This document shows positions 3,920 through 63,193 of a stretch of DNA of 64,000 nt, piece after piece. Numbering within the stretch: position 1 is the first letter of the stretch; each line of letters starts with the position of its first letter. The DNA comes from Thermofilum sp. NZ13 (lineage in GTDB: Archaea; Thermoproteota; Thermoprotei; Thermofilales; Thermofilaceae). A program made the translations under genes and the position numbers. The notes under the pieces are model-generated. The model was not told the origin of the DNA, did not search any database, and worked only from the letters and a program-made list of their open reading frames with translations. Where the stretch lies: contig NDWX01000008.1 of the NCBI GenBank assembly GCA_002855745.1, positions 1 through 64,000 on the forward strand, written 5' to 3'.

Positions 3920-4960
3920 GTGCCTGGCGACGAGATCCTCAGGATATTCAGCCTACTCAACGGCTTGCGCGCGGAGCTCACCCCAACATTCCACATCAAC
4001 GGCCACACAGTCACAGCCGAGGAGCTGCGAGTGCTGGAGGCTGTTGAGAGGGCTGGCTCCATAAAGAGGGCCGCGGAGCTGCTGGGCCTCGACTACAGGA
4101 CGGTTTGGAACACAATCGCCAGGCTCGAGGAGGCTACCGGTGCGAAAGTCGTCGAAAGGGGGGCTGGAGGGCCCGGCGGCGGTGGCGCGCACCTGACTCC
4201 GGTAGGCGAGGCAATCCTCGCGAAGGCCAGGCTAGTGCGCGCGAAGCTCACCGGCATGCTAAGGGGCTTCGACCTCGCGAGGCCTGATGTGGTCATAGCG
4301 GGGAGCGACTGCGCGGTGATGGAGCGGCTCATCTCGGAGCTCGCCGAGAAGGGGGTCTACGGGCTCTACCTGAAGGTGGGCTCCACGCTGGGCGTGGAGG
4401 CGCTCAAGATGGGTTTGAGCCACGTCGCGGGGGTCCATATCCTCGACCCGGCTACCGGGAGGTATAACGAGCACCTGCTCAACCACCCCCAGCTGAGGGG
4501 CAGGGTGGTTTTAGTGAAGGGGTGGAAGAGAGTGATGGGGCTCGCATTCAACCCTAGGGTAAAGGATCCCCCCGATAGCCTCACCGGTGTTGTCGAGCGG
4601 GGCTTGAGGATCGCTAACAGGATCAAGGGCAGCGGGACCAGGATCCTCCTCGAGCACCTTCTCGAGCAAGCGGCCCGCGAGCTGGGGGTGCCGGTTTCGG
4701 CCCTCAAGAGGAGGCTCAAGGGCTACGGAGTTGAGTACACCACCCACCGGGAGGCGGCAAACGCTGTGGCGACAGGCAAGGCCGACGTCACCCTGACTGT
4801 GGACTGGGTCGCTAGGGAGCACGGCTTGGTCTTCAAGCCGCTGCTAAGCGAGGACTACGACCTGCTCATGATCAAGGACGTTCTCCCCAAGCTACCGCTA
4901 GCCGAGACATCTGTCTTCAAGGGCAGAGAGGGGTTAACCGTAATCGAGCAGCCTCCATGA
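3920..4960 (+). CDS. ModE-type regulator: LysR-like HTH plus substrate-binding domain
   Basis: A 346-aa protein. The N-terminal ~95 residues form a ModE/LysR-like winged helix (ERAGSIKRAAELLGLDY, then LEEATGAKVVERG and a glycine-rich wing before HLTPVGEAIL). The remaining ~230 residues look like a periplasmic-binding-protein fold (VVIAGSDCAVMERL, KVGSTLGVEAL, GSGTRILLEHLL, EYTTHREAANAVATGKADV), as in archaeal one-component molybdate/tungstate regulators. It would sense a metal oxyanion or cofactor and control transport genes. The tungstate transporter genes lie 5 kb downstream and carry a perfect palindrome at their promoter, a possible target (inference). GTG 3920 follows a TTTAAATAG box at 3875-3883. 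It is not in an operon with tupABC. Confidence 0.82.
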   Translation: MPGDEILRIFSLLNGLRAELTPTFHINGHTVTAEELRVLEAVERAGSIKRAAELLGLDYRTVWNTIARLEEATGAKVVERGAGGPGGGGAHLTPVGEAILAKARLVRAKLTGMLRGFDLARPDVVIAGSDCAVMERLISELAEKGVYGLYLKVGSTLGVEALKMGLSHVAGVHILDPATGRYNEHLLNHPQLRGRVVLVKGWKRVMGLAFNPRVKDPPDSLTGVVERGLRIANRIKGSGTRILLEHLLEQAARELGVPVSALKRRLKGYGVEYTTHREAANAVATGKADVTLTVDWVAREHGLVFKPLLSEDYDLLMIKDVLPKLPLAETSVFKGREGLTVIEQPP

Positions 4961-9495: not shown

Positions 9496-9551
9496 GAAGG
9501 CTCATATCCACCGACCTATAAAATATTTTCATCGAGATGGTTACAATGAAA

Positions 9552-9583
9552 AAGCATATATACGCTATGATAAAAATCATAGC
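9552..9583 (+). promoter_or_regulatory. tup promoter with perfect palindromic operator
   Basis: TATA-like GCATATATAC at 9554-9563 is followed immediately by the perfect palindrome GCTATGAT-AAAA-ATCATAGC at 9564-9583, which covers the expected transcription start. A protein bound there would block transcription. The ModE-type regulator at 3920 is a candidate (inference). Confidence 0.65.
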
Positions 9584-9723
9584 GGTAAGATTATGAAGCA
9601 GACTGGAGCAAAGAGGTTCAATATAGTCGCCTTCTTGCTGGTGGCTATGATAAAAATCATAGCGGTAAGATTATGAAGCAGACTGGAGCAAAGAGGTTCA
9701 ATATAGTCGCCTTCTTGCTGGTG
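9564..9723 (+). repeat. exact 80-bp tandem duplication at the start of tupA
   Basis: Bases 9564-9643 and 9644-9723 are identical. Each unit contains the palindrome, an ATG and the first 17 codons of the TupA signal peptide. The unit is not a multiple of three, so the first copy runs out of frame and ends at TGA 9674-9676, overlapping the start codon of the full gene. The TATA box lies only upstream of unit 1. Confidence 0.97.
9593..9676 (+). pseudogene. truncated duplicate of the tupA start, acting as an upstream ORF (27 aa)
   Basis: It starts MKQTGAKRFNIVAFLLVA, exactly like TupA, then reads the second repeat unit in another frame and stops at TGA, which overlaps the tupA ATG as ATGA at 9673-9676. 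Because the promoter lies before this copy, ribosomes would translate this peptide first and could then re-initiate on tupA. It is either a coupling leader peptide or just a by-product of the duplication. Confidence 0.7.
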
Positions 9724-10623
9724 GCTCTCGCTTTAGTCGGGGCCGCGTACTTCTACTTCACTAACCAGCCTCAGGCAAAGCAGAAGACGGTGCTCCGGAT
9801 CGCAACCACCACGAGCGTTGACGCGACAGGTCTCCTCGACGCTTTGAAGAAGGAGTTCGAGTCCACTTATCCTGACATCAACGTCACCTGGGTCGCAGTC
9901 GGGACCGGCCAAGCGCTGCAGATAGCGATGAGGGGGGATGCTGACATGGTCATAACGCACGACAGGCCGTCCGAGGAGCAGTTCATAAAGCAGGGTTACG
10001 GCGTCCACGGTATCTCCTTCGCCTACAACGACTTCGTGATCCTAGGCCCCCCTAACGACCCAGCCGGGATCAAGGATGCCAAGAGCGCCGCGGAGGCCTT
10101 CAGGCTGATAGCGCTGGCGGGGGAGCAGGGCAGGGCAGTTTTCGTGTCGAGGGGTGACAAGTCCGGGACGAACCTCAGGGAGCTGAGGCTCTGGGAACAG
10201 GCGGGGGTGAACGCCACTGGCCGCCCCTGGTACAAGGAGACCGGGCAGGGCATGGCGCAGACGCTCATGGTCACCGACCAGCTGAGGAACGCCTACACGC
10301 TCAGCGACAGGAGCACCTACTTGGCATTCAAGGACAAGCTCTCACTCGCGGTGCTCTTCCAAGGCGACCCTGCTCTCCTAAACATATACAGGGCAACCCT
10401 CGTCAACAGCACCCGCTTCCCGTGGGTTCACTACGACGCGGCCTACAAGTTCGTGAAGTTCCTTATCTCCCCCAGAGGGCAAGCCTTAATAGGTAGCTAC
10501 ACTAAGGGCGGCGCTAAGCTGTTTAACACATGCTTCGGCAACGTCTCCAAGCTCGGCATCGTTGACCCATACGAGGAAGAGCAGATCGCCTGGTGGAGGG
10601 AGCAGTTGCAAAAGGACCCGTGA
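9673..10623 (+). CDS. tupA: tungstate ABC transporter, substrate-binding protein
   Basis: A 316-aa extracytoplasmic binding protein. Residues ~9-28 form the signal/anchor (FNIVAFLLVALALVGAAYF), with no lipobox Cys, so it is either cleaved or stays membrane-anchored. The mature part begins with the TupA signature IATTTSVDATGLLDAL; TTTS is the oxyanion-binding loop of TupA proteins rather than ModA or WtpA. Further family blocks are DADMVITHDRPSEEQF, NDFVILGPP, FVSRGDKSGTNLRE and PWYKETGQGMAQTL. It binds tungstate (possibly molybdate) and delivers it to TupB. Its start lies in the second unit of an 80-bp tandem repeat. TupB and TupC follow on the same strand. Confidence 0.92.
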   Translation: MKQTGAKRFNIVAFLLVALALVGAAYFYFTNQPQAKQKTVLRIATTTSVDATGLLDALKKEFESTYPDINVTWVAVGTGQALQIAMRGDADMVITHDRPSEEQFIKQGYGVHGISFAYNDFVILGPPNDPAGIKDAKSAAEAFRLIALAGEQGRAVFVSRGDKSGTNLRELRLWEQAGVNATGRPWYKETGQGMAQTLMVTDQLRNAYTLSDRSTYLAFKDKLSLAVLFQGDPALLNIYRATLVNSTRFPWVHYDAAYKFVKFLISPRGQALIGSYTKGGAKLFNTCFGNVSKLGIVDPYEEEQIAWWREQLQKDP

Positions 10624-10695: not shown

Positions 10696-11361
10696 GTGAT
10701 CGACGCGACGCTGAGCGAGGTAGTCTCGATAACCCTTCTATCTTTACGTGTCTCGGCGACGGCCGTAGCCCTATCCTCAGCCTTCGGGCTCCCGCTGGGG
10801 GCGTTCATCGCCAGTAAGGAGTTTAGGGGCAAGCACGTCACAGTCACCGTGATAAACACGCTGATGGGCACGCCCCCCGTTCTCCTGGGCCTCCTCCTCT
10901 ACCTCCTCCTCTCCCGCCAAGGCCCCCTCGGCTGGACAGGCCTCCTCTTCACCCCCGAGGCCATGATCGTCGCCCAGTTCCTCCTGACCCTCCCGATAAC
11001 CACGGGCCTCACCATCACAGCGGTCGAGTCGTTGCCCAGGGACCTCAGGGAGCTCGTGCGCTCGCTGAGGGCCAGCGCCCTTTACGAGGCGCTACTCCTC
11101 CTGAACGAGTCCCGCGTCAACCTCCTGGGCGCGGTCCTCGCTGCGCTGGGCCGGGCGATATCGGAGGTGGGGGCTGTTATCATCGTCGGGGGAAACATAA
11201 GGTACCAGACACGGGTCCTCACAACAGCCATCGTCTACTACACGAACGCCGGCGAGTTCGACACCGCGATCGCTCTCGGCGCGGTCCTCGCCCTCGTCTA
11301 CCTCGCCGTCAACACCGCCGTGATCATCCTGAAGCTCAGGGTGGGGAAGAGTGCCGCTTGA
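10696..11361 (+). CDS. tupB: tungstate ABC transporter permease
   Basis: A 221-aa permease with about five or six hydrophobic segments and the cytoplasmic EAA-type loop (SLPRDLRELVRSL, around residues 112-125, continuing to ALGRAISEVGA) that docks on the ATPase. GTG 10696 is supported by a GGAGGG Shine-Dalgarno-like sequence at 10681-10686. The gap of 72 bases from tupA and an 11-base overlap with tupC indicate one operon. Family knowledge: TupB forms a homodimeric channel. Nothing unusual is seen in its sequence. Confidence 0.9.
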   Translation: MIDATLSEVVSITLLSLRVSATAVALSSAFGLPLGAFIASKEFRGKHVTVTVINTLMGTPPVLLGLLLYLLLSRQGPLGWTGLLFTPEAMIVAQFLLTLPITTGLTITAVESLPRDLRELVRSLRASALYEALLLLNESRVNLLGAVLAALGRAISEVGAVIIVGGNIRYQTRVLTTAIVYYTNAGEFDTAIALGAVLALVYLAVNTAVIILKLRVGKSAA

Positions 11362-12046
11362 AGCACAAGAGGTGTCGAAGAGCTACGATGGAAGACCCGT
11401 GCTCAAGAGCGTGAGCCTGATCGCCGAGAGGGGGCAGGTGACGTGCCTCATAGGCCCCAACGGCTCCGGAAAGACCACCCTCCTCCGCATACTCGCCCTC
11501 CTCGAGAAGCCTGACTCCGGGAGGATCCTCCTCGACGGGGCGGACCTCTCGATCAAAGTCAGGGAGCGCGCTGCCAGGATAGCCTACATGCCCCAGAGGC
11601 CAGTCGCCCTGACCGCAAGCGTCTACGGAAACGTATTCCTACCCCTGAGGGCAAGCGGCGTCCCTGGCCCCGAGGCCTCGAAGAGGGCGAAGAGGTACCT
11701 AGACCTCCTAGGCCTCACTGAGCTCGAGGACAAGCCCGCCCAGAGGCTCTCCGGGGGGCAGCGGCAGCTCCTCGCCATAGCGAGGGCGCTGGCGCTGGAA
11801 CCAGACCTGCTCCTGCTCGACGAGCCGACGAGCCACCTAGACCCCTCAAACGCCTCCAAGGTGAGAGCGCTGATAAGGGAGTACGTTAAATCGCGTGGCA
11901 TCGTAGCGGTCATCGTCTCCCACTCCCCCCAGGAGGTCGCGGAGCTCTCCGACAAGACCGTGCTGCTCTTCGATGGGGCCGTGAAGGGAGTCTACGCGCG
12001 GCAAGCCGTGAGCGAGGAGCTACTAAAACTCTTTTACTCCTACTGA
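11351..12046 (+). CDS. tupC: tungstate ABC transporter ATP-binding protein
   Basis: A 231-aa ABC ATPase with Walker A GPNGSGKTT, the signature LSGGQRQLLAIARALA, Walker B LLLLDEPTS and the H-loop IVSHSPQE. It lacks the C-terminal regulatory domain of long ModC/WtpC proteins, as is usual for TupC. GTG 11351 lies inside the end of tupB, so translation is coupled. The gene is the last of the operon; the next gene has its own TATA box. Confidence 0.92.
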   Translation: MPLEAQEVSKSYDGRPVLKSVSLIAERGQVTCLIGPNGSGKTTLLRILALLEKPDSGRILLDGADLSIKVRERAARIAYMPQRPVALTASVYGNVFLPLRASGVPGPEASKRAKRYLDLLGLTELEDKPAQRLSGGQRQLLAIARALALEPDLLLLDEPTSHLDPSNASKVRALIREYVKSRGIVAVIVSHSPQEVAELSDKTVLLFDGAVKGVYARQAVSEELLKLFYSY

Positions 12047-12592: not shown

Positions 12593-12642
12593 ACTCCAAC
12601 CGCAAAACTCCGTAGCCGCTCTATCAGTGTTTCACGGGCCCC

Positions 12643-13383
12643 TCACCTCCAGCAGTACTTCGCCCAGGGCTCTACTGGGGCGCCGCAGCTCGGGCAGGCG
12701 CGTAGCGTCGCGCGCTCCCGGGCCGGAGAGCGCTCCGCCCGCTCAGCCGCCTCGAGCCAGACTACCCTCCTCTCCTCCACGCCCCCGCTCCTCGCGACAA
12801 CGGCTACGGGCAGCCTGCCAGCCGTCTTCGGCTTAACGGGGACCTCGACGGGGCCCTCAGCCTCGCCAGGGTCGATCCACTCCACATCCCCCTCGAGAAG
12901 AAGCCTCGCCCTGCCGCCCAGCCTAACCCTCAAAACACCCCACTCACCAGCAGCCAGTTGAGGGGCCTCGACCGACACGAGGAGCTGCTCCACACGCTGG
13001 CTTTCCACGGGCCTCTGCTTAGCTGGCTGAACCAACCGCCCCCGCCTCGCCGACTTGAGGAGCTTCATGACTTCCCTGTGCCCTCCCTTCCTCGCGAGGT
13101 CCAAGGGAGTCCTCCCCTTCTTATCCCTCGCGTCGACGTCCGCCCCGCTCTCGACGAGCAGCCTAGCAACATCCAAGTAGCCTTCCATAGCGGCCACGTG
13201 CAGCGGCGTATAGCCGAATTCGCTCCTGGCGTCGACGTCTGCGCCGCTCTCTACGAGTAGCCTAGCAACATCCAGGTGGCCCCGAGAAGCGGCCAAGTGT
13301 AGCGGCGTCCGGCCAGACTGCTTGAGGAGCTTTCTAACCTTTTTCAAGTCCCCCTTAGCCGCCGCGAGGTGGAGCTCGCTCAT
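12643..13383 (-). CDS. ankyrin-repeat protein with C-terminal zinc ribbon
   Basis: A 246-aa protein. Residues ~2-110 hold about four ankyrin repeats (GRTPLHLAASRGHLDVARLL, then GYTPLHVAAMEGYLDVARLL, then GRTPLDLARKGGHREVMKLL; the first repeat is shortened). Residues ~125-215 look like an immunoglobulin-type beta domain (APQLAAGEWGVLRVRLGG...VEVPVKPKTAGRLPV), and the end holds a zinc ribbon half-site CPSCGAPVEPWAKYC. Two of the repeats are nearly identical in DNA (13150-13190 and 13225-13275), a sign of recent duplication. Ankyrin proteins are adaptors; no partner can be named. The start ATG 13383 is preceded by an AGTTTTTAGG box near 13410. Confidence 0.8.
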   Translation of the reverse strand: MSELHLAAAKGDLKKVRKLLKQSGRTPLHLAASRGHLDVARLLVESGADVDARSEFGYTPLHVAAMEGYLDVARLLVESGADVDARDKKGRTPLDLARKGGHREVMKLLKSARRGRLVQPAKQRPVESQRVEQLLVSVEAPQLAAGEWGVLRVRLGGRARLLLEGDVEWIDPGEAEGPVEVPVKPKTAGRLPVAVVARSGGVEERRVVWLEAAERAERSPARERATLRACPSCGAPVEPWAKYCWR

Positions 13384-14323
13384 CGATTGGGAGTGCTTGT
13401 ATCTTCCTAAAAACTTGATGGTCGTGGTGTCGGCTTGAGAGCTTCAAGGTTTTCGGTAATTAGACCAGGGCATGGGCTTCAAAGTTCCTCCGGTGGCGTG
13501 CTTTGGAGGCTCACGCAGCTTCCCAGCGCTTCACGGGAAAAGTTGTGCGGCACAGACCGCGCCAACCAGGGTGCAAGCAAACGCGCTTGTAGCTGGCAGT
13601 TGCACCAGCGGGAATTAGTCGTGGGGCTAAAGCACACCGCTCAGCGCTTTTGAGCGGGCTTTGAGCTACAACGGTGGTGTCGCTTTGAGCCTGGAGCGGC
13701 GCGACAGAAGCTACTCGGAACAAACGGCACGTCTTTTCGCGGTGTTGGGGCAGCTGTCGCCCAGACCCCTGATCCTCCTCTGGAGCTTCGATGTAACCCG
13801 TGGTTGGCGCTTCACTCCCTCGTGCTGGAGCACCGAGTGTGTTGCCTCGGATCATACGTACCTGGGGCTACCGCCTCCACGTTCCTGCTAGCTTCCACCT
13901 CGTGCTGCCTACTTGAGGCTCTAACACGCTGTAACTAGGACGAGGGAACGCTAGGGGTCAGTTCTCGCTCTTTAGACCTCCACTAACCTCATGTGCTAAT
14001 GCTCCGGAGGCCATAGCGCTCGAAGCATAATAACTCGTGCGTGCACCCCTTGGCGAATAGTGCTCTTAGGTGGCGTTGATCCGTTCTCTTCGGCTAGTAA
14101 GCTGGTAGCCTCCGTGCATTTGCTGTGTACGCAACGAATCTATGAGAGTCTAAGGTGTTGCCAAAGCGGGGGTTGAGGCGCCTCGCGTAATACTTCGCCG
14201 ATGCCCTGGGGCATTAGCCCGTTTTTCGGCTTCTCCTGAAGTGCGACTGCTCGAGCGGGGCTTGCGTGTGTTGTTGAGTCGCTCGCTACCCTGTGCTGAG
14301 CCCCGATTATCACGGGGGTATTT
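13384..14323. other. 940 bases without a recognisable gene
   Basis: Frames here (for example 13511-13855 minus and 13661-13891 plus) do not look like protein: no hydrophobic core pattern, mixed codon use, no homologue recognised. A clear hairpin CCGCTCA/TGAGCGG is at 13637-13657; its loop resembles that of a hairpin at 24663-24679. The stretch probably holds decayed genes. The end (14314-14326) is the promoter of the next gene. Confidence 0.5.
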
Positions 14324-16972: not shown

Positions 16973-19300
16973 TTAGGGTGGCTTGATGGTGAGGTCTATG
17001 CTCACGTGTACGTCCACGCCTGTGAGCGCGCGTATGGCCTCTTCGATCATCGCCTCCAGCCCGCTGACCCGCGATAGCTCTTCGAGCCTGTTCACGTCGA
17101 GCCGGACGACTGCCCTCACGGCGTTCGCCCCCTCAACGCTGAGCTCCACGTCCTCCGGGAGCACGCCCAGGTGCGAGGCGACGACCTCCCTGGCGAGGAG
17201 CGTGAAGCCCCCTGCTAGCCTGCGCCGGGCTTCCAGCTGCGTGAAGGCTGAGGCGCTGTTAACCAGCACTAGGGTCAGGGTGAGCACCACCAGGAGCTTC
17301 GCCAGTAGGGTTGCTTCCCTCCCCCTTATCGGCTTGTAAAGTGCCACCCCGATGGCGGTCGCGAGGGCCACGGTGAAAAGCGCTGCGATGGAGCTCAGCA
17401 GGTGGATCCCGAGGATGTAGCCGAGGCTAAGCCACAGGAGGAACGAGGAGACAGCAACCCACGCCAGGCTCCCGGGGCTGCCTCTCCTCCTGTACTCCCT
17501 CACTTGGGAGGCTACGACTGCCGAAGCGGCGATTGCGAGCGCTGTGCTGGCGAGAAGCGCGGCCCACCTCGGCATAGCTGTCGGGAGGAGGGCTGTAAGG
17601 CTGTCCGCTACTGCCGCGATGACTGAGGCGTGCGCGCTGGAGAGGAGGTTGGATATGGTGCTCGTCGCCAGCGCGGCTAGGCCGAGGGAGGCTAGGGGGA
17701 GGAGGGCCGTCGAGTAGATCCTCCTGCCTATTTTCGCTAGAGCGTCGCCCAGGGAAGCCCCCCTCGCGACCCCTAGCACCGCGTCTGCCCACGCCTCGAC
17801 AAGGGCTAGGGACCCGAGGAGGGGGTTCCGGCCCCCGCCGTGCCTTTCCCACACGTGGCGGAAGACAGGTGCGAGTATGTAGATCTTCGCCACCAGGTAG
17901 CCGGTGATCATGAGGGCTAGCACGTTGATAGTGAGCAGGGAGGCTGCCCCGGTGAAGAGGCGGGGGTTGAGCATCGCTAACGAAACGCCCACCGCCGCGG
18001 CGGGCGGGACGAGAGCTATGGCTATCGCGGCCCCCACGAGGGGTCCCACCTCTCTCCTGTAGATCATTGAGAGGGACGCTACAGCGCCTGCGCACATCGC
18101 CACGGCCGCGTCGGCTAGGTTCGGCGAGCCCCTGGCCTCCAGCTCGGGGGTCGGCTGGAGGGGCACGAAGAGGCTGGCTGCCAGGGAGATGGCGAGCGAG
18201 GATAGAACTATCACCACTATCCCCACGGCGGTGTCCCTCAGCCCCCTGTAGAAGTAGCGCAGCGCCTCGCTGTTGCCCGGTGTGCGGGTTGCTAGGCTTG
18301 CGGCCCCCGCTACGGCGACGCCCATCAGGCTTGAGAGGAGCATCGAGCCTATTATGGCGGTCACGTTGTTGGTCATCAGGCCGATCGAGGCGAGGAAGGT
18401 GGCGAGGATGAGCCTCAGGTAGCCTCCTGGCTTCTCGAAGGAAGTGATCTCGCCTCCCGCGGCCTCGAGGATCTCGGATGCGTGCGCTGAGACCGCGTCG
18501 AGCACTTCTCCGTCTGGCTTACGGTCGGAGACGAGGCTGACCAGCTCGCGGTAGTCAGCCGCGTAGAGCGGGTAGAGTGCGACGAGGAGGAGCACAAGGA
18601 GCAGGAAGGCTGCGGCGAGCTTTGCCCAGAGGTAAGTTGCGTCGGCGGGGAACTTGAGCGAAGAGTCCAGGGGGACGAGGGCCGACCACACGAAGAGCTC
18701 GTAGCCTCCGGCAGACGAGGCGAGCCCGTATACTCGCTCTATGGACCTGTAGAGGTCTCCGTAGAGCAGGGCAGCTTCCTTAAGGTTCTCCCGAGCTGCC
18801 ACTAGCGCCGCTAGGCGGCTTAGACCCGTGTAGATCCTACTCCTCTCGCTGTCGATCTCGCCCAGGAGGGTGGAGTTCCTGACGACCGGCCTAACCCTGG
18901 AGAGCTCGCCCTCAACCTCGGACAGCCTGGAGACCAGCCGTAGCAGGCTCGCACGCGAGGGGGCAACGTACACCTCAGTGCTCGAGGCTGCGCTCGCGCT
19001 CGCCGCGGATACGGTGACCGCGGCGGTGTAGACGCCAGGCTGGAGCCTGACGACGGGCACCGCGACGTAATCGGAGCCGCTGAGGTTAACCCGTAGCGTC
19101 TTCTCGAAGGCCAAGCCACCACCCTTGAGGCTCAGGCTCACCTGGGTAGGCCCGGCGACGCCGGTCACTCTAACGGTGATGTCGAAGCCTGCTGAATCGT
19201 CAACCCACCTTGGTACTTCGAGGAGCACCTGAAGCGGTTGCGCAAGCAGAAGGGGCGGGAAGAGCAGTGTGAGTAGCAGAACGCCCGCTGTCCTAAGCAC
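16973..19300 (-). CDS. DUF389 membrane protein with an extracellular Ig-like domain
   Basis: A 775-aa protein. Residues 1-20 are a signal peptide (TAGVLLLTLLFPPLLLAQP); ~25-110 is an immunoglobulin-like beta domain; ~115-200 is helical; a membrane segment lies at ~225-245. The DUF389 core follows at ~275-475 (LILATFLASIGLMTNNVTAI, continuing IIGSMLLSSLMG), then further membrane helices to ~660 and a soluble C-terminal domain ending VDVHVSIDLTIKPP. DUF389 proteins have unknown transport-like functions; a fused secreted N-terminal domain is not typical. GTG 19300 follows a GCTTATTAAG box at 19323-19332, so the mRNA is likely leaderless. It is divergent from the C25-type protease gene. Confidence 0.8.
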   Translation of the reverse strand: MLRTAGVLLLTLLFPPLLLAQPLQVLLEVPRWVDDSAGFDITVRVTGVAGPTQVSLSLKGGGLAFEKTLRVNLSGSDYVAVPVVRLQPGVYTAAVTVSAASASAASSTEVYVAPSRASLLRLVSRLSEVEGELSRVRPVVRNSTLLGEIDSERSRIYTGLSRLAALVAARENLKEAALLYGDLYRSIERVYGLASSAGGYELFVWSALVPLDSSLKFPADATYLWAKLAAAFLLLVLLLVALYPLYAADYRELVSLVSDRKPDGEVLDAVSAHASEILEAAGGEITSFEKPGGYLRLILATFLASIGLMTNNVTAIIGSMLLSSLMGVAVAGAASLATRTPGNSEALRYFYRGLRDTAVGIVVIVLSSLAISLAASLFVPLQPTPELEARGSPNLADAAVAMCAGAVASLSMIYRREVGPLVGAAIAIALVPPAAAVGVSLAMLNPRLFTGAASLLTINVLALMITGYLVAKIYILAPVFRHVWERHGGGRNPLLGSLALVEAWADAVLGVARGASLGDALAKIGRRIYSTALLPLASLGLAALATSTISNLLSSAHASVIAAVADSLTALLPTAMPRWAALLASTALAIAASAVVASQVREYRRRGSPGSLAWVAVSSFLLWLSLGYILGIHLLSSIAALFTVALATAIGVALYKPIRGREATLLAKLLVVLTLTLVLVNSASAFTQLEARRRLAGGFTLLAREVVASHLGVLPEDVELSVEGANAVRAVVRLDVNRLEELSRVSGLEAMIEEAIRALTGVDVHVSIDLTIKPP

Positions 19301-19395
19301 AGCAAAGCAGATGAGGGCCCGCTTAATAAGCTTGCCTCACCGAACATAACATAAGATAAAAAATAAATACAAGTGTTAAAAAATAAATTTCCTGT

Positions 19396-22300
19396 ATGAG
19401 GAGTTACACAAGAACTCTGATATCTTTAGTGCTTCTAGCAGTCCTTCTAACCGCCTTTGCGGCTCGCACCCCCCGCTTCTCCGCCGCCCCCAACGGCCCT
19501 AAAACCCTTACCTCCAGCCTCGCTTTCAAGGCGCCCTCCTTAGTGAAGGCACCCGTAGAGGGCTACGAGGTGGTCAGCGTAGTGGACACCCAGCCCTATC
19601 TGAGGCCGGGAGCACCAATAGTGCCTGTGAAGGTCATTAAGTTCGAGCTCCCCTACCACGCCGAAGTTCTCTCAGTGAAGGTGAGCTACCGGGAGGCCCA
19701 GCTCCCTGGAAAGCACAGGCTACTCCCCTCACCGCAACCCGTTAGGCTTGACAAGGCGAAGAACGCCACCGCGCGGGAGGTCTACGTAGAGGACCCGAAG
19801 ATTTACAGCTCAAAGGCCCCGTACCCGGGCAAGGTCTACGAGTACGAGGTCCACCGCGGCTTGAACGCTCGCGGCGAGAGAGCGACAATCGTAGTTGTCA
19901 GGATATTCCCCGTCCAGTACGTGCCCGCGGAGGGGCGGATCAGCTACATCAGCTCCGCCGAGGTGACGGTCGAGTACACTTCCAGCGAGGAGCCCAAGCC
20001 CCTACTGGACTTGAACCTAGTCATCATATCTCCCCCCGAGCTCAGCCCCTACGCCAACCAGCTGGCCGAGATCAAGAACCAGACTGGCCTGAAGTCGATC
20101 GTCGTGACAACCGACTGGATATACAGCAACTACCAGGGCGTCGACAAGCCGGAGAAGATCAGGAACTACCTGAAGGACCTCGCCTCCCAGACGGGAAGCC
20201 TTTACGTGATCCTCTTCGGCGACACAAACCTCATCCCAACCCGCAGGGTGCACTGGAGCGGGATCGAGGACTACGCTTGGATCAACCCCTACGTTGAGAC
20301 CGACCTCTACTACGCCGACCTTGACGGCTCCTGGAACGCGGACGGCGACAGCGACTGGGGTGAGCCCGGGGAGGACGGCGTTGATGGCTACCCGGACATC
20401 GTAGTCGGCAGGCTCCCTGTGAGGGACGAGGCCACCGCTATGGCCGTCGTGAGCAAGATCGCCGGGTACCAGCCCGAAAACAGCTGGTTCAGGAGGATCC
20501 TGTTGCTCGGCACCGTGACCTTCTGGGATCCGCTGCGGCCTGAGGGCGAGATAACCAAGGACTACATCGAGCAGTACGCCCTGCCTGAGGACTTCTCGTG
20601 GACCAAGCTCTACGAGGGGCTGGGCAACCTCACCCGCAGCAACGTGATCCGGGAGATCAGCAACGGCTACGGGTTCGTCAACTTCGCGGGGCACGGCAAC
20701 ACATGGCTCTGGTGGTTTGGGAGCTGGTCTGATGAAGGGTACTTTACATCAGGTGACGTCTTCTTCTTCCTCGGAAACGGGAACAAGACAGCTGTTGTCT
20801 TCGCGTCAGCCTGCTTGACGAACGACTTCGCGGACACCGACGTGGCGATCTCGGAGGCATTCATCCTCCACAGGGGAGGGGCGATAGCCTACGTTGGAGC
20901 AGCCGAGTTAGCCTATGCTTACATCGGGTACTGGACCACCTACGGGTTAAGCAATGCTTTAGACGTGATGTTCATTAGATCGTTCAAGGTCCTCGAGAAC
21001 GCTACAGCGCTATTGCCGGGCCCCAGCCCCGGGCTCATGCACGCCCTCGCCCTAGAGGAGTACCTGAGCACCTTCGGGACGGGCTGGGACCTCGACTGGT
21101 ACACCGTAGTGGAGTACGGCTCGCTCATCGGCGACCCCTCTGCAATCCTAAAGGGCGCAGGTAGCCCTCCGCCGCCCCCGCCCGAGCCGGTGCTCAGGGG
21201 CTGGGTGCTCGACCCTAACCAGCAGCCCGTCGCCGGCGCTGTGGTCAGGCTGTACGACTACTTCAGCGGCCAGTTGCTCTACGAGACGGTCGCTACGGAC
21301 GGGTACTACGAGTTCCGGGGCATCAGCTCGGGCACCTACCGCCTGAACGCGAGCAAAGGCGATGCCTGGGGCACCAGGACCTTCTACTACCCGCGAGTCC
21401 CCATGACCGTCAACGTCACGGTCCAGGAGATAAAGCTCGTGCCCAACACCGTCCTCATCGTGGTGGACGACGACGCAAGGTTTAAGCCAGACGAGGGCTT
21501 CTGGCCCGAGGAGTTCGAGGCCGTAGCGTCCTCCCTCGGGTTCAGCGTCTTCGTGTGGAGGGAGAGTGAGCTCGGGGAGCCGCCCCTGGACATGCTCCTC
21601 AACGCGAACGTCCCTCTGGTGGTCTGGCACTCGGGAACAGGCTATTGGTGGGCGGTCAGCCCCACGGAGGCGGGCACGCTCATACAGTTCGTCGAGGCCG
21701 GAGGCAGGCTCCTCTTGGAGGGCGAGGACATCGGACTCGACCACGGGTGCGACGAGTTCATGGTGAGGGTCGCCCACGCCTGCTACCTCGTTGACAATGC
21801 TGGGGCAGGTCCCGTCGAGGCTACGCTGCTCCACCCGGTGACGAGCGGCATATCTGTCCTTGCTTTCTCCGCGCAACCCCCATGGCCTGATGGCGTCTAC
21901 CCCGTCAACGGGGGGGTTGAGGTAATGCGCTACACCGGCACAGACTACTCTGCCGTAGTGGTCTACGACGGCCTGCCGCTGGGCTCCAACGCGAGGGTCG
22001 TCTACGTGGCCTTCCCCGTCCACTACCTCAACGCCTCAGACCGCGACGCGCTCCTGAGGAACGCCCTGAGGTGGCTCTCGACGTCCGTCTACCTCGTGCC
22101 GAGGACTGACAAGGCAGTGTACCAGGCTGGCTCCCAGGTGCTGCTCTCGGCAACGGTGTACAACGCCTCCACCCCGCTCCCGGGCTTAAACGTAACCGCG
22201 GAGGTCTACCGCCCCGACGGGAGCCTGCTAGCAAGGGTGGCAATGCAGGACGAGGGCAACGGGACGTACTCCGGGATTGTGCAGATACCTTCAGCCGCGC

Positions 22301-22965
22301 CCATTGGAGACTACCTGGTTAGGGTGTACGCCATGCGCGCAGGCGAGGTTGCGGCCTACGGTCAAGCGGCGTTTAAGGTGGTGCTAAATTACTGGGGCCT
22401 CGGCCCTAAGTTCGACGTTGTCTCCGTCCTCTACTCGGCTGGGAGCTCAGTTCTGGTCGTGAACGCCTCGAGTGAAGCTGGGCTGCCGGTGCTCGCGGTC
22501 TACTATGTGCTCTGCTCGCAGGGCTCCTGCACCGGCTTCGCAGCGCAGCCAGCCGACGGCAGCTTCGGCGGTGCGTGGGAGGTGGTGCTCCTCAACATCA
22601 GCTCCAGCCAGCTGGCCGTGGGCGAGTACAGCGTCTACGTCTACACCGACTTCCTCGGCACGGGTCTCGGCAACGAGAGCGAGTGGTTGCTCCTCGCAAG
22701 GGCGCACGTCCGGGAGCTCGCCGCCCGTTACAACCTGATAGCGCTGAGCGGGGAACAGTTGTTGCCGATGCGCGCCTCAGACCTCGCCGCGGCCGTCGGT
22801 GGGAGCCTGCAGGCGGTCTGGAAGTGGGACGTTTCTGCGCAGAGGTTCTCCGGCTTCATCCCCGGGGTCAGCACCCCGGACAAGGACTTCCAGCTTGAGA
22901 GGGGTTATGGCTACTTCGTGTACCTCACTTTGCCTGCTCGGTGGGTTGAAGTAAACAAGGGGTGA
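19396..22965 (+). CDS. secreted C25 (gingipain-like) peptidase, multi-domain
   Basis: A 1189-aa protein with a signal peptide (residues ~5-25) and a long propeptide-like region. The catalytic domain of peptidase family C25 spans about residues 210-600: Asp-rich strand DLYYADLDGSW, DIVVGRLPVRD, catalytic His in FVNFAGHGNTW (near 432) and catalytic Cys in VFASACLTNDF (near 473). After a proline-rich linker (~595-603) come a carboxypeptidase-regulatory-like beta sandwich (RGWVLDPNQQPVAGAVVRLY), a class I glutamine-amidotransferase-like region (~690-890) and an Ig/macroglobulin-type domain (~895-1000). There is no C-terminal membrane anchor. The stop overlaps the start of the next gene, whose product is membrane-anchored, so the two likely form a surface complex. 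It is A+T-poor apart from the promoter region before ATG 19396. Confidence 0.85.
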   Translation: MRSYTRTLISLVLLAVLLTAFAARTPRFSAAPNGPKTLTSSLAFKAPSLVKAPVEGYEVVSVVDTQPYLRPGAPIVPVKVIKFELPYHAEVLSVKVSYREAQLPGKHRLLPSPQPVRLDKAKNATAREVYVEDPKIYSSKAPYPGKVYEYEVHRGLNARGERATIVVVRIFPVQYVPAEGRISYISSAEVTVEYTSSEEPKPLLDLNLVIISPPELSPYANQLAEIKNQTGLKSIVVTTDWIYSNYQGVDKPEKIRNYLKDLASQTGSLYVILFGDTNLIPTRRVHWSGIEDYAWINPYVETDLYYADLDGSWNADGDSDWGEPGEDGVDGYPDIVVGRLPVRDEATAMAVVSKIAGYQPENSWFRRILLLGTVTFWDPLRPEGEITKDYIEQYALPEDFSWTKLYEGLGNLTRSNVIREISNGYGFVNFAGHGNTWLWWFGSWSDEGYFTSGDVFFFLGNGNKTAVVFASACLTNDFADTDVAISEAFILHRGGAIAYVGAAELAYAYIGYWTTYGLSNALDVMFIRSFKVLENATALLPGPSPGLMHALALEEYLSTFGTGWDLDWYTVVEYGSLIGDPSAILKGAGSPPPPPPEPVLRGWVLDPNQQPVAGAVVRLYDYFSGQLLYETVATDGYYEFRGISSGTYRLNASKGDAWGTRTFYYPRVPMTVNVTVQEIKLVPNTVLIVVDDDARFKPDEGFWPEEFEAVASSLGFSVFVWRESELGEPPLDMLLNANVPLVVWHSGTGYWWAVSPTEAGTLIQFVEAGGRLLLEGEDIGLDHGCDEFMVRVAHACYLVDNAGAGPVEATLLHPVTSGISVLAFSAQPPWPDGVYPVNGGVEVMRYTGTDYSAVVVYDGLPLGSNARVVYVAFPVHYLNASDRDALLRNALRWLSTSVYLVPRTDKAVYQAGSQVLLSATVYNASTPLPGLNVTAEVYRPDGSLLARVAMQDEGNGTYSGIVQIPSAAPIGDYLVRVYAMRAGEVAAYGQAAFKVVLNYWGLGPKFDVVSVLYSAGSSVLVVNASSEAGLPVLAVYYVLCSQGSCTGFAAQPADGSFGGAWEVVLLNISSSQLAVGEYSVYVYTDFLGTGLGNESEWLLLARAHVRELAARYNLIALSGEQLLPMRASDLAAAVGGSLQAVWKWDVSAQRFSGFIPGVSTPDKDFQLERGYGYFVYLTLPARWVEVNKG

Positions 22966-24263
22966 CCGTCGTGTCGGCGAGGAAGGCTCTTACCCTGCTC
23001 GTCGTCGCGGCGCTGGTGCTCTCGCTACTGCTTAAGCACGTGAGCGCGCAGGTTCCGGTGACCGTCTGGGGTTACATCAAGATGCCTGATGGATCTCCGG
23101 CCGCCGGAGCCTCTGTGACTGTTAAGGCTGGCTCAGTTACCGCTTCCACGACGGCAGGCTCGGATGGAAAGTATCAGGTTGACCTGACGGTCCCCTCAGT
23201 CCCCGTCACGGTTACTGTCACTGCGGTGAAGGGCGAGTACAGCGGCTCGGCCTCAAAGACCGGTGAGGGCGTGATAAGGATCGACGTAGTGCTCCAGAAG
23301 GCCGCCCCGCCTCCACCTCCGCCTCCATCGAAAAAATTGACCAGACTATCTATCACCGCCTACCCGGTGTCCTGCGTTCGCGGCGAAGCCGTCACGATCA
23401 TCGGCAACATCACACCAGCTATGAAGGTCAGCGTCACTCTGAGCATTAAGGCTCCCAATGGCTCTAGAATTAACGTCGAGCTACAGACCGACGACAAGGG
23501 TTCGTTCAGCTACACCTTTACCCCTGATTCGGTGGGGGTTTGGGAAGCCTTCGCTAGCTTCCCGGGAAACAGCGAGTATCAGGGCTCAACTAGCCCGACT
23601 GTTCAGATCGCGGTTAAGAACCCGACGCGCCTCACCCTCAGCGCTCTTGCGACTCAGCCGAAGAGCGTTACCCTTGTCGGGGAACTAACACCCAGCGTGG
23701 AGGGCGCCGCGGTCTTGATCTACGTGAGCATCGATAACGGAAAGACGTGGCTCAACTATACGAGAGCTTTGACGGGTAGCGATGGGAGGTTCAGGATCAT
23801 CTTAAACATCACCGTTAGCGGTAGCCTTCTCTTCAAGGCCGTGTTCCCGGGATCCGAGCTTCTCGCACCAGCTGAGGCAACGGCGCTTCCTGCCATGGTG
23901 CTTTCCGAAGCTGAGGTGAGGCTGGGAGAGCAGCTGGCCAACCTGCAGAAGCAGAACCAGGAGCTCAACCGCACCCTGGCCGCACTCACCGCCGAGAAGG
24001 CGAGCCTGGAGGAAAAGGTTCAAAGCATTACAAGGGAGAAGGCAGACCTGGAGAACCAGCTGCAGAGCGCGAAAAGAGACCTCGAACAGCTCAGGGGCGA
24101 GGCTGAAGGGCTCAGAAGGGAGGTTGATGCTCTGAGGACAATGACCTACGTGGGCATCCCCCTTGCCGGCGTAGCAGGTGCGGCCCTCGGCTTGATCATC
24201 GGTACGAGGCGCCGCTCTCAGGTGCAACGCCCCGTTGAACCGAAGCCAGCGCGGGGTCAATAG
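22962..24263 (+). CDS. surface protein: beta domains, coiled coil and C-terminal membrane anchor
   Basis: A 433-aa protein: signal peptide (KALTLLVVAALVLSLLLK), a carboxypeptidase-regulatory-like beta domain (~30-112), a seven-proline linker, two Ig-like domains (~125-218 and ~220-310), a coiled coil (~315-395; ENQLQSAKRDLEQLRGEAEG), a membrane segment (YVGIPLAGVAGAALGLIIG) and a short positively charged cytoplasmic tail. It overlaps the C25-type peptidase by four bases (GTGA), so production is coupled; it may tether the peptidase or present its substrate (inference). A T-rich stretch at 24278-24299 may end the transcript. S-layer-stalk-like proteins of this build are known in archaea. Confidence 0.8.
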   Translation: MTVVSARKALTLLVVAALVLSLLLKHVSAQVPVTVWGYIKMPDGSPAAGASVTVKAGSVTASTTAGSDGKYQVDLTVPSVPVTVTVTAVKGEYSGSASKTGEGVIRIDVVLQKAAPPPPPPPSKKLTRLSITAYPVSCVRGEAVTIIGNITPAMKVSVTLSIKAPNGSRINVELQTDDKGSFSYTFTPDSVGVWEAFASFPGNSEYQGSTSPTVQIAVKNPTRLTLSALATQPKSVTLVGELTPSVEGAAVLIYVSIDNGKTWLNYTRALTGSDGRFRIILNITVSGSLLFKAVFPGSELLAPAEATALPAMVLSEAEVRLGEQLANLQKQNQELNRTLAALTAEKASLEEKVQSITREKADLENQLQSAKRDLEQLRGEAEGLRREVDALRTMTYVGIPLAGVAGAALGLIIGTRRRSQVQRPVEPKPARGQ

Positions 24264-24664
24264 GTAAACCTAAAAACCTTCTTCTTTACTACTTATTTTC
24301 GAAATCATTACTTTTGAGTGACTCTCTTCTCGCTAGGTGGTGGGGTGCGAGCTTCTCGGCGCTCAAATGAAATTCACCGGGGTATAGTTTAAGGAAGCTG
24401 AAAGTAGGAATAGGGGAAAATCTGCTTCATTCGAAGAGAAGTTGCCCTAGGATTTTCAAATTGTTCTTACGAAAGTGGGATGGTCGTTTTACTCATGATA
24501 GCTGGTTTGGCGCTATCAGGGGGAGATGTACACCAAGTGACAAGTCTAGGCGAAGCGTTGCTCGGGGGCAGCGGTTTACGAGTTTTACCGTTCACCGCTG
24601 TAAGGGCGTTAGGGTTGACTCAATATGATTAAAACCCGCTTGGCTCAGCAACTCTAGGTGTCGC
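24264..24664. other. 401-base intergenic region, possible 50-aa ORF at 24480-24632
   Basis: A T-rich run (24278-24299) follows the surface-protein gene and may be a terminator. A short frame from ATG 24480 to TAA 24632 (MVVLLMIAGLALSGGDVHQV...) has reasonable codon use but no match I recognise. A hairpin GCTCAA/TTGAGC at 24663-24679 overlaps the 3' end of the next (minus-strand) gene. Nothing else is evident. Confidence 0.3.
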
Positions 24665-25093
24665 TCAACGCTTTTGAGCCGCCGGGGGAGCCTCGAGCCT
24701 CACGACCCCTCTGGGCGCGTCAAGCAGCGCGGTGAACCTGTCTAGGAGCCCTCTGCCCAGCAGGCTCCTCCTCGCGAAGACTGTGGTGTACACTTCGCAG
24801 GCCTCCCTGAACCCTCCCAGCTCGACAATGCAGCGGGAAACCCTGAGCTCCACGCGGTAGCCCCCCGCGACGAGCCCCTCGATTTTCTCGGCGTCCTCGT
24901 AGAGGTGCAGGCCCAGCCTCAGGTACTCCTCGATCGACAACAGGAGGGTCCCCGAGAACCCTGTGTCCACCCTCGCCTCTACAGTGGTTCCCCTCCTCCC
25001 AGATGGCGTGTAGACGTTCAGCCTTACGACTGGAACGGGCGGCCTCTCGCTGCTGCTGTAGTAGCCCTCAGCTACAGCTCGACCAGGCTCCAA
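24665..25093 (-). CDS. retropepsin-like aspartyl protease family protein
   Basis: A 142-aa single-domain protein of the clan AA (retropepsin-like) type. The catalytic loop reads VDTGFSGTLLLS (Asp-Thr-Gly present), and the second family strand RSLLGRGLLDRFTALLDAPRG is complete. Such proteins dimerise, each subunit giving one Asp. In archaea they are often encoded beside a small DUF5678 or ribbon-helix-helix protein, as here. TTG 25093 lies inside the end of the upstream gene (22-base overlap), so they form one operon. The substrate is unknown. Compare the homologue at 57727, whose loop is altered. Confidence 0.78.
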   Translation of the reverse strand: MEPGRAVAEGYYSSSERPPVPVVRLNVYTPSGRRGTTVEARVDTGFSGTLLLSIEEYLRLGLHLYEDAEKIEGLVAGGYRVELRVSRCIVELGGFREACEVYTTVFARRSLLGRGLLDRFTALLDAPRGVVRLEAPPAAQKR

Positions 25094-62389: not shown

Positions 62390-63193
62390 TTGGAGTTGCT
62401 CAGCAAGGAGGAGAGGCTGAGGATCCTGAGGACGGTCGCGGAGGACGAGGAGTTCAGGCACGCGCTGATGGGCGCGCTTGGCTACTCCGAGCTCCTCTCA
62501 AACCTCGAGAAGATATGGGAGGAGGTCAAGGCGCTCCGCGAGGAGATCAAAGGGCTCAGAGAGGAGCAGGCGAAGATATGGAGGGAAATCGAGGAGATCA
62601 AGCTTGAGCAGGCGAAGATCTGGCAGGAGATACGGGCTATAAGGGAGGAGACCAAGAAGATCTGGCAGGAGATAGAGGGCATCAAGCGCGAGCAGGCCAA
62701 GATATGGGAGGAGATCAAAGCGCTCAGGGAGGAGGCGAACAAGCTCTGGAAGGAGGTCAGAGACCTCAAGGAGGGGCAGAGGAGGCTTGAGGAGGGCCTA
62801 GAGAAGGTATGGGGTGCGCTCTTCCATGGTTTCTCGCAGCTCAGTAAGTTCGCCGGGGTGACGTTCGAGGAGTTCGTGAGGACGCTTCTGACGGACCTCT
62901 TCCGGAGGCACGGCGAGATACCGGAGGGCGCTGAGCTGAAGCGGGCCGTGATTGACGGGGAGGAGGTGGACATTTTCCTCGAGGACCCGCTCATCGTCGG
63001 CGAGGTGACGGCGCGCGCGGAGCCCGACGAGCTGGAGAAGCTCCTCAGGAAGGCGAGGAGGGCGGAGGAGATCTACGGGAGGAGGGCGAGGCGCATCCTC
63101 ATCGTCGAGACCGCGGACGCGGCTGTAGCCAGGGAGCTCAGGAGGAGGGCCAGAGAAGAGGGCGTGGAGCTGGTGATCGGGAGGGAGGTCTGA
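62390..63193 (+). CDS. coiled-coil protein with nuclease-like C-terminus (DUF3782-like)
   Basis: A 267-aa protein: a short N-terminal part (EERLRILRTVAEDEEFRHAL), a coiled coil built of ~14-residue repeats (EEQAKIWREIEEIK, LEQAKIWQEIRAIR, REQAKIWEEIKALR) over residues ~40-135, and a C-terminal domain with GEEVDIFLEDPLIVGEVTAR and ARRILIVETADAA. The pattern resembles the PD-(D/E)XK-like DUF3782 group of Thermoproteota/Sulfolobales, although the expected ExK reads EVT, so catalysis is doubtful. TTG 62390 is favoured by a TTTTAAGC box at 62350-62357; the ORF is longer upstream but the added part is not protein-like. Confidence 0.65.
   Translation: MELLSKEERLRILRTVAEDEEFRHALMGALGYSELLSNLEKIWEEVKALREEIKGLREEQAKIWREIEEIKLEQAKIWQEIRAIREETKKIWQEIEGIKREQAKIWEEIKALREEANKLWKEVRDLKEGQRRLEEGLEKVWGALFHGFSQLSKFAGVTFEEFVRTLLTDLFRRHGEIPEGAELKRAVIDGEEVDIFLEDPLIVGEVTARAEPDELEKLLRKARRAEEIYGRRARRILIVETADAAVARELRRRAREEGVELVIGREV

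Follow-up and report, generated by a model that had tools for sequence, protein, structure and literature searches.

What happens to an operon when its putative operator and the first codons of its leading gene are copied in place? The tup operon raises this question in the 64-kb stretch of DNA analyzed here (the window), part of an 87-kb contig in a 1.88-Mb genome of 33 contigs (G000) from a heat-loving archaeon. Direct sequence comparison within the window bore out the exact 80-bp tandem duplication described in an earlier note on this DNA: positions 9564-9643 and 9644-9723 are identical at 80 of 80 bases. The period-80 match extends to 9726, making the array 9564-9726, because GCT stands at both breakpoints (9564-9566, 9644-9646, and 9724-9726) as a microhomology. 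This is the sole exact tandem array in the window, and chance cannot account for such a match. The features on which the argument turns are these.

9549-9562, plus strand: predicted BRE-TATA promoter of the tup operon, AAAAAGCATATATA, score 15.4
9563-9584, unstranded: putative operator 1, a perfect 22-bp palindrome, CGCTAT-GATAAAAATC-ATAGCG, matching CGYTAT-N10-ATARCG in full
9564-9643, unstranded: repeat unit 1, the same as unit 2 at 80 of 80 bases
9593-9676, plus strand: 27-codon upstream open reading frame (ORF) from the old tupA start codon, by translation
9644-9663, unstranded: putative operator 2, a 20-bp palindrome, GGCTAT, with one mismatch to the consensus
9644-9723, unstranded: repeat unit 2, run on to 9726 by GCT and missing from G041, a complete conspecific genome
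9673-10623, plus strand: tupA, predicted tungstate-binding protein of the ABC transporter, with a TTTS motif (PBP_like_2)
10696-11361, plus strand: tupB, permease by homology
11351-12046, plus strand: tupC, ATPase by homology
3920-4960, plus strand: likely regulator, with a ModE-like helix-turn-helix (HTH) and a PBP_like ligand domain (PF12727 plus HTH_1)

We favor, with a probability of roughly 0.6, a recent slip duplication that created an upstream ORF and left tupA to be reinitiated, with repression through operator 1 kept and TupA somewhat reduced. A tandem duplication at the 3-bp GCT microhomology would have copied the operator and the first tupA codons, leaving the promoter, the complete operator, and the original start codon in front. 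The mRNA would now open with a 27-codon frame, the start of the old TupA signal peptide, and the true tupA start would lie 80 nt further in, with almost no Shine-Dalgarno sequence. We imagine that ribosomes reach this start mainly by stopping at the overlapping TGA and restarting (ATGA). The tupABC genes would still be repressed via operator 1, TupA output would be somewhat lower, and operator 2, weaker and within the transcribed leader, could add a minor block when repressor is bound. Most likely, operator 1 still mediates tungstate repression, and the duplication is an ordinary mutation of an operon of familiar type rather than a novel switch. Tungsten uptake is probably weakened a little. 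Altered control, by translational coupling or by a roadblock at operator 2, was the outcome suggested in the earlier note and is possible.

How old is the duplication? Comparison of related strains, a check proposed in the earlier note, found one unit in G041, which is about 95.4% identical to the window in the flank; the unit reads ...GCATATATAC-GCTATGATAAAAATCATAGC...CTGGTG-GCTCTC, and its TATA box and palindrome are identical to those of the window. The repeat was also absent from the tupA loci of five other members of the genus, read by eye, and from 57 archaeal tupA loci tested for 20-nt direct repeats, a few of which coincide with the genus or class relatives. Between G000 and G041, 398 of 8,668 alignment columns of the flank differ (4.6%). 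Within the unit they differ at 3 bases, and the window variants are present in both of its copies. Had the duplication dated from the strain split, ~3.7 copy-to-copy differences would be expected; none was seen (Poisson P(0) of ~0.025, presuming no gene conversion between the copies). Gene conversion could conceal an older age. Taken together, the single unit in G041, the absence of the repeat elsewhere, and the lack of mutations between the copies argue that the duplication is derived, recent, and private to G000 among the loci examined so far. A literature search on comparable duplications, or on leaderless transcripts in Thermofilum, found nothing useful.

An exact repeat found in no relative, even the complete genome of the same species, is also what one would see if the genome truly held one unit and the assembler had doubled it. 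We consider this unlikely. The repeat lies inside the contig, away from its ends; microhomology at the breakpoints is typical of genuine duplications; and the assembly produced no other exact tandem array in 64 kb. In general, short tandem repeats are more often collapsed than created by assemblers.

The genes downstream share the TTTS motif and the tupA-tupB-tupC order with the TupABC system known from TupA of Desulfovibrio alaskensis (PMC5517513), whereas the window system is archaeal, falls below the NCBIfam equivalog cutoffs, and has a duplicated 5′ end. The TTTS ligand motif is invariant in 10 aligned TupA sequences, the protein has a PBP-type fold (PBP_like_2), and its best PDB match is 3lr1, annotated as tungstate binding (E value of 1.4e-61). 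Against NF041772, it scored 170 bits, under the equivalog cutoff of 400; TupA thus appears to be a distant homologue, not an equivalog, named by homology and predicted to bind tungstate. The gene is still under constraint, since 17 of its 23 differences from G041 fall at third codon positions.

The two copies of the palindrome are not equivalent. The dyad of unit 1 spans 22 bp (CGCTATGATAAAAATCATAGCG, 9563-9584), while unit 2 has G at 9643 in place of the outer C. The full site is found at unit 1 only because the C at 9563 falls outside the duplicated stretch. A perfect palindrome in each unit, as originally described, therefore holds at its full 22 bp for unit 1 and in a 20-bp version for unit 2, and the idea of two equal operators has to be given up. 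That the palindrome is operator-like was well judged, since it agrees with an archaeal consensus at tupA promoters. A site with N10 spacing lies within one mismatch upstream of tupA in 26 of the 57 archaeal loci and one with N11 spacing in 7, compared to 0 and 1, respectively, in control stretches of similar length inside the gene at the same loci. At the same position, G005 has CGCTATGAAAATATTCATAACG, in which the inner base pair has changed in both halves without loss of dyad symmetry. In G000 and G041, the tup promoter is the one place with the full CGYTAT-N10-ATARCG motif, so that a search of these two genomes for a wider regulon found no second target; G005 has one extra match.

The palindrome resembles the operator of Escherichia coli ModE, ATCGNTATATA-N6-TATATANCGAT (PMC545781, PMC2700814), in its CGNTAT and ATANCG half-sites, its dyad symmetry, and its position at an oxyanion transporter promoter. 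It differs in spacing, with N10 between the half-site cores here (N10 or N11 in archaea) in place of the N12 of E. coli, and in the likely regulator, which pairs a ModE-like HTH with a PBP_like domain. It seems, then, to be an operator with ModE half-sites that precedes tupA in many archaea, often beside a regulator with a ModE-like HTH. The comparison backs a tungstate operator common to many archaea, CGYTAT-N10/11-ATARCG, a pattern useful for annotation. In archaeal loci L077 to L154, tup operators often have three half-sites in 7-base steps, for example CGTTATC-CGATAACG-GATAACG, with spacings of N3, N10, and N17; this suggests overlapping binding registers.

One can envision operator 2 as a second working repressor site, acting as a roadblock or cooperatively with operator 1 and tightening tungstate control. 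It keeps the 20-bp palindrome and lies ~60 to 80 nt past the predicted start of transcription. However, it has lost the conserved outer C, no relative has two operators 80 bp apart, and a literature search on this regulator found no evidence of a roadblock. Moreover, the duplication, strain-private and recent, shows no sign of selection. We find this explanation quite improbable.

The ModE-type protein of the earlier note is encoded at 3920, where PF12727 and HTH_1 are found, and it matches the ModE structure 1b9m across the HTH (residues 34 to 106, E value of 1.1e-7). Its score against TIGR00637 is 67 bits (cutoff, 98.5). Its C terminus has PBP_like PF12727 in place of the Mop/TOBE molybdate domains, which Pfam did not find; by this domain content, it would not be classed as a ModE. 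Relatives of the protein lie near tup at 34 of the 84 loci examined, at many of which the contig ends early, and in many loci their genes diverge from tupA across the operator. We infer that the 3920 protein binds the palindrome. The regulator gene stands close behind the tup genes in G001 to G004 but ~5 to 11 kb upstream of tupA in the window, G041, and G005, so the cluster has been split.

Where does transcription begin? Promoters were scored with a BRE-TATA model built by expectation maximization (EM) from 96 regions of the genus, which include start codons. The strong site at 9549-9562 is second best in the window, in keeping with the promoter said to lie before unit 1 only. A promoter directly before unit 2 was sought and discarded; no site scored there, and AATATA at 9620-9625 received just 1.4. 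The order of TATA box, palindromic site, and ATG is common to G041, G005, G001, and G002. From the promoter position, tup transcription is predicted to start at ~9585, which is 8 nt ahead of the old ATG and upstream of 9644; this start would put operator 2 within the transcript, as first supposed. In G005, G001, and G002, transcription with the equivalent spacing would begin at the ATG itself, suggesting an ancestral tupA with little or no leader. In the window, leaderless-type initiation would now serve the 27-codon ORF.

A weaker promoter-like match, GGTAAGATTATGAA, begins at 9584 in unit 1 (9584-9597) and scores 9.8, with a predicted mRNA start at ~9620. If it were a cryptic promoter, it would give tupA a second, differently controlled mRNA that skips the upstream ORF. 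Only 36 of ~128,000 strand positions reach its score, including some that look like real promoters. Yet the match overlaps the ATG codon, and the regions used to train the model contain start codons; the single-unit G041 has an identical sequence, and a useless truncated mRNA would result there; and the leader it would produce in the window has a poor Shine-Dalgarno sequence. Such a promoter seems to us improbable to a high degree.

The ORF at 9593-9676 translates as MKQTGAKRFNIVAFLLVAMIKIIAVRL*, 27 amino acids, and its TGA overlaps the tupA ATG (9673) in an ATGA at 9673-9676, so the 27-residue leader and its overlap are as previously reported. The tupA frame is open upstream as far as a TAA at 9586-9588, with no ATG, GTG, or TTG between. 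The ATGA overlap arose because a length of 80 (3n+2) was duplicated in a gene starting ATG-A. Such a gene holds TGA in that frame, and ~1/3 of duplication lengths would use it. The overlap carries no evidence of design or selection; any sense that it marks a selected arrangement gives way to a strain-private, unmutated duplication and an ATGA that follows from its length.

Assuming the canonical archaeal 16S tail, the Shine-Dalgarno energy of tupA is −3.1 kcal/mol, a value at least matched by 61% of random 20-mers, while those of tupB and tupC are −10.5 and −7.4 kcal/mol. With almost no Shine-Dalgarno sequence, tupA is probably translated by termination-reinitiation, at a lower output. Termination-reinitiation at ATGA overlaps is an established process in both Haloferax and E. 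coli; of seven Haloferax pairs, two lost ~80% of their reinitiation when the Shine-Dalgarno sequence was removed, and none lost it completely (PMC6728339). The locus shares with those archaeal pairs the 4-nt overlap and a downstream start at which de novo initiation is not strong; it differs in that its upstream ORF is a duplication fragment, not a gene, and in having no recognizable Shine-Dalgarno sequence (PMC6728339). The measurements come from those two organisms, so reinitiation at tupA would be by analogy.

It is very unlikely that the duplication has been retained as a two-operator tungstate operon gated by an upstream ORF, with the repressor acting at initiation and also blocking elongation in the leader. 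Least credible of all, and dropped, is a leader RNA hairpin (attenuator), which should not form at growth temperature: the palindrome folds at 37°C (−8.4 kcal/mol), but the prediction falls to −0.8 kcal/mol at 75°C and to an unfolded state at 85°C. In relatives within the genus, the site stands before the mRNA body, flanked by the TATA box and the start codon, and its conservation follows a DNA operator consensus.

G041, with one unit, and G000, with two, form a clean natural pair in which to ask what follows when the start of a near-leaderless archaeal gene is moved inside its mRNA, and the case illustrates the creation of an upstream ORF by a single slip. Beyond that, the duplication is a routine strain difference.

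Elsewhere in the window, ~8 kb at 17033-25058, with large ORFs (775, 1,189, and 433 amino acids), fails to align with the syntenic G041 region and appears to reflect an insertion, loss, or rearrangement between the strains. An ankyrin-like repeat gene at 12638-13386, with degenerate 99-bp repeats, also matches two other places in the compared G041 region at ~76 to 78% identity. The stretch at 62519-62770 holds degenerate tandem repeats (periods, 21, 42, and 84 bases) that probably encode a coiled coil.
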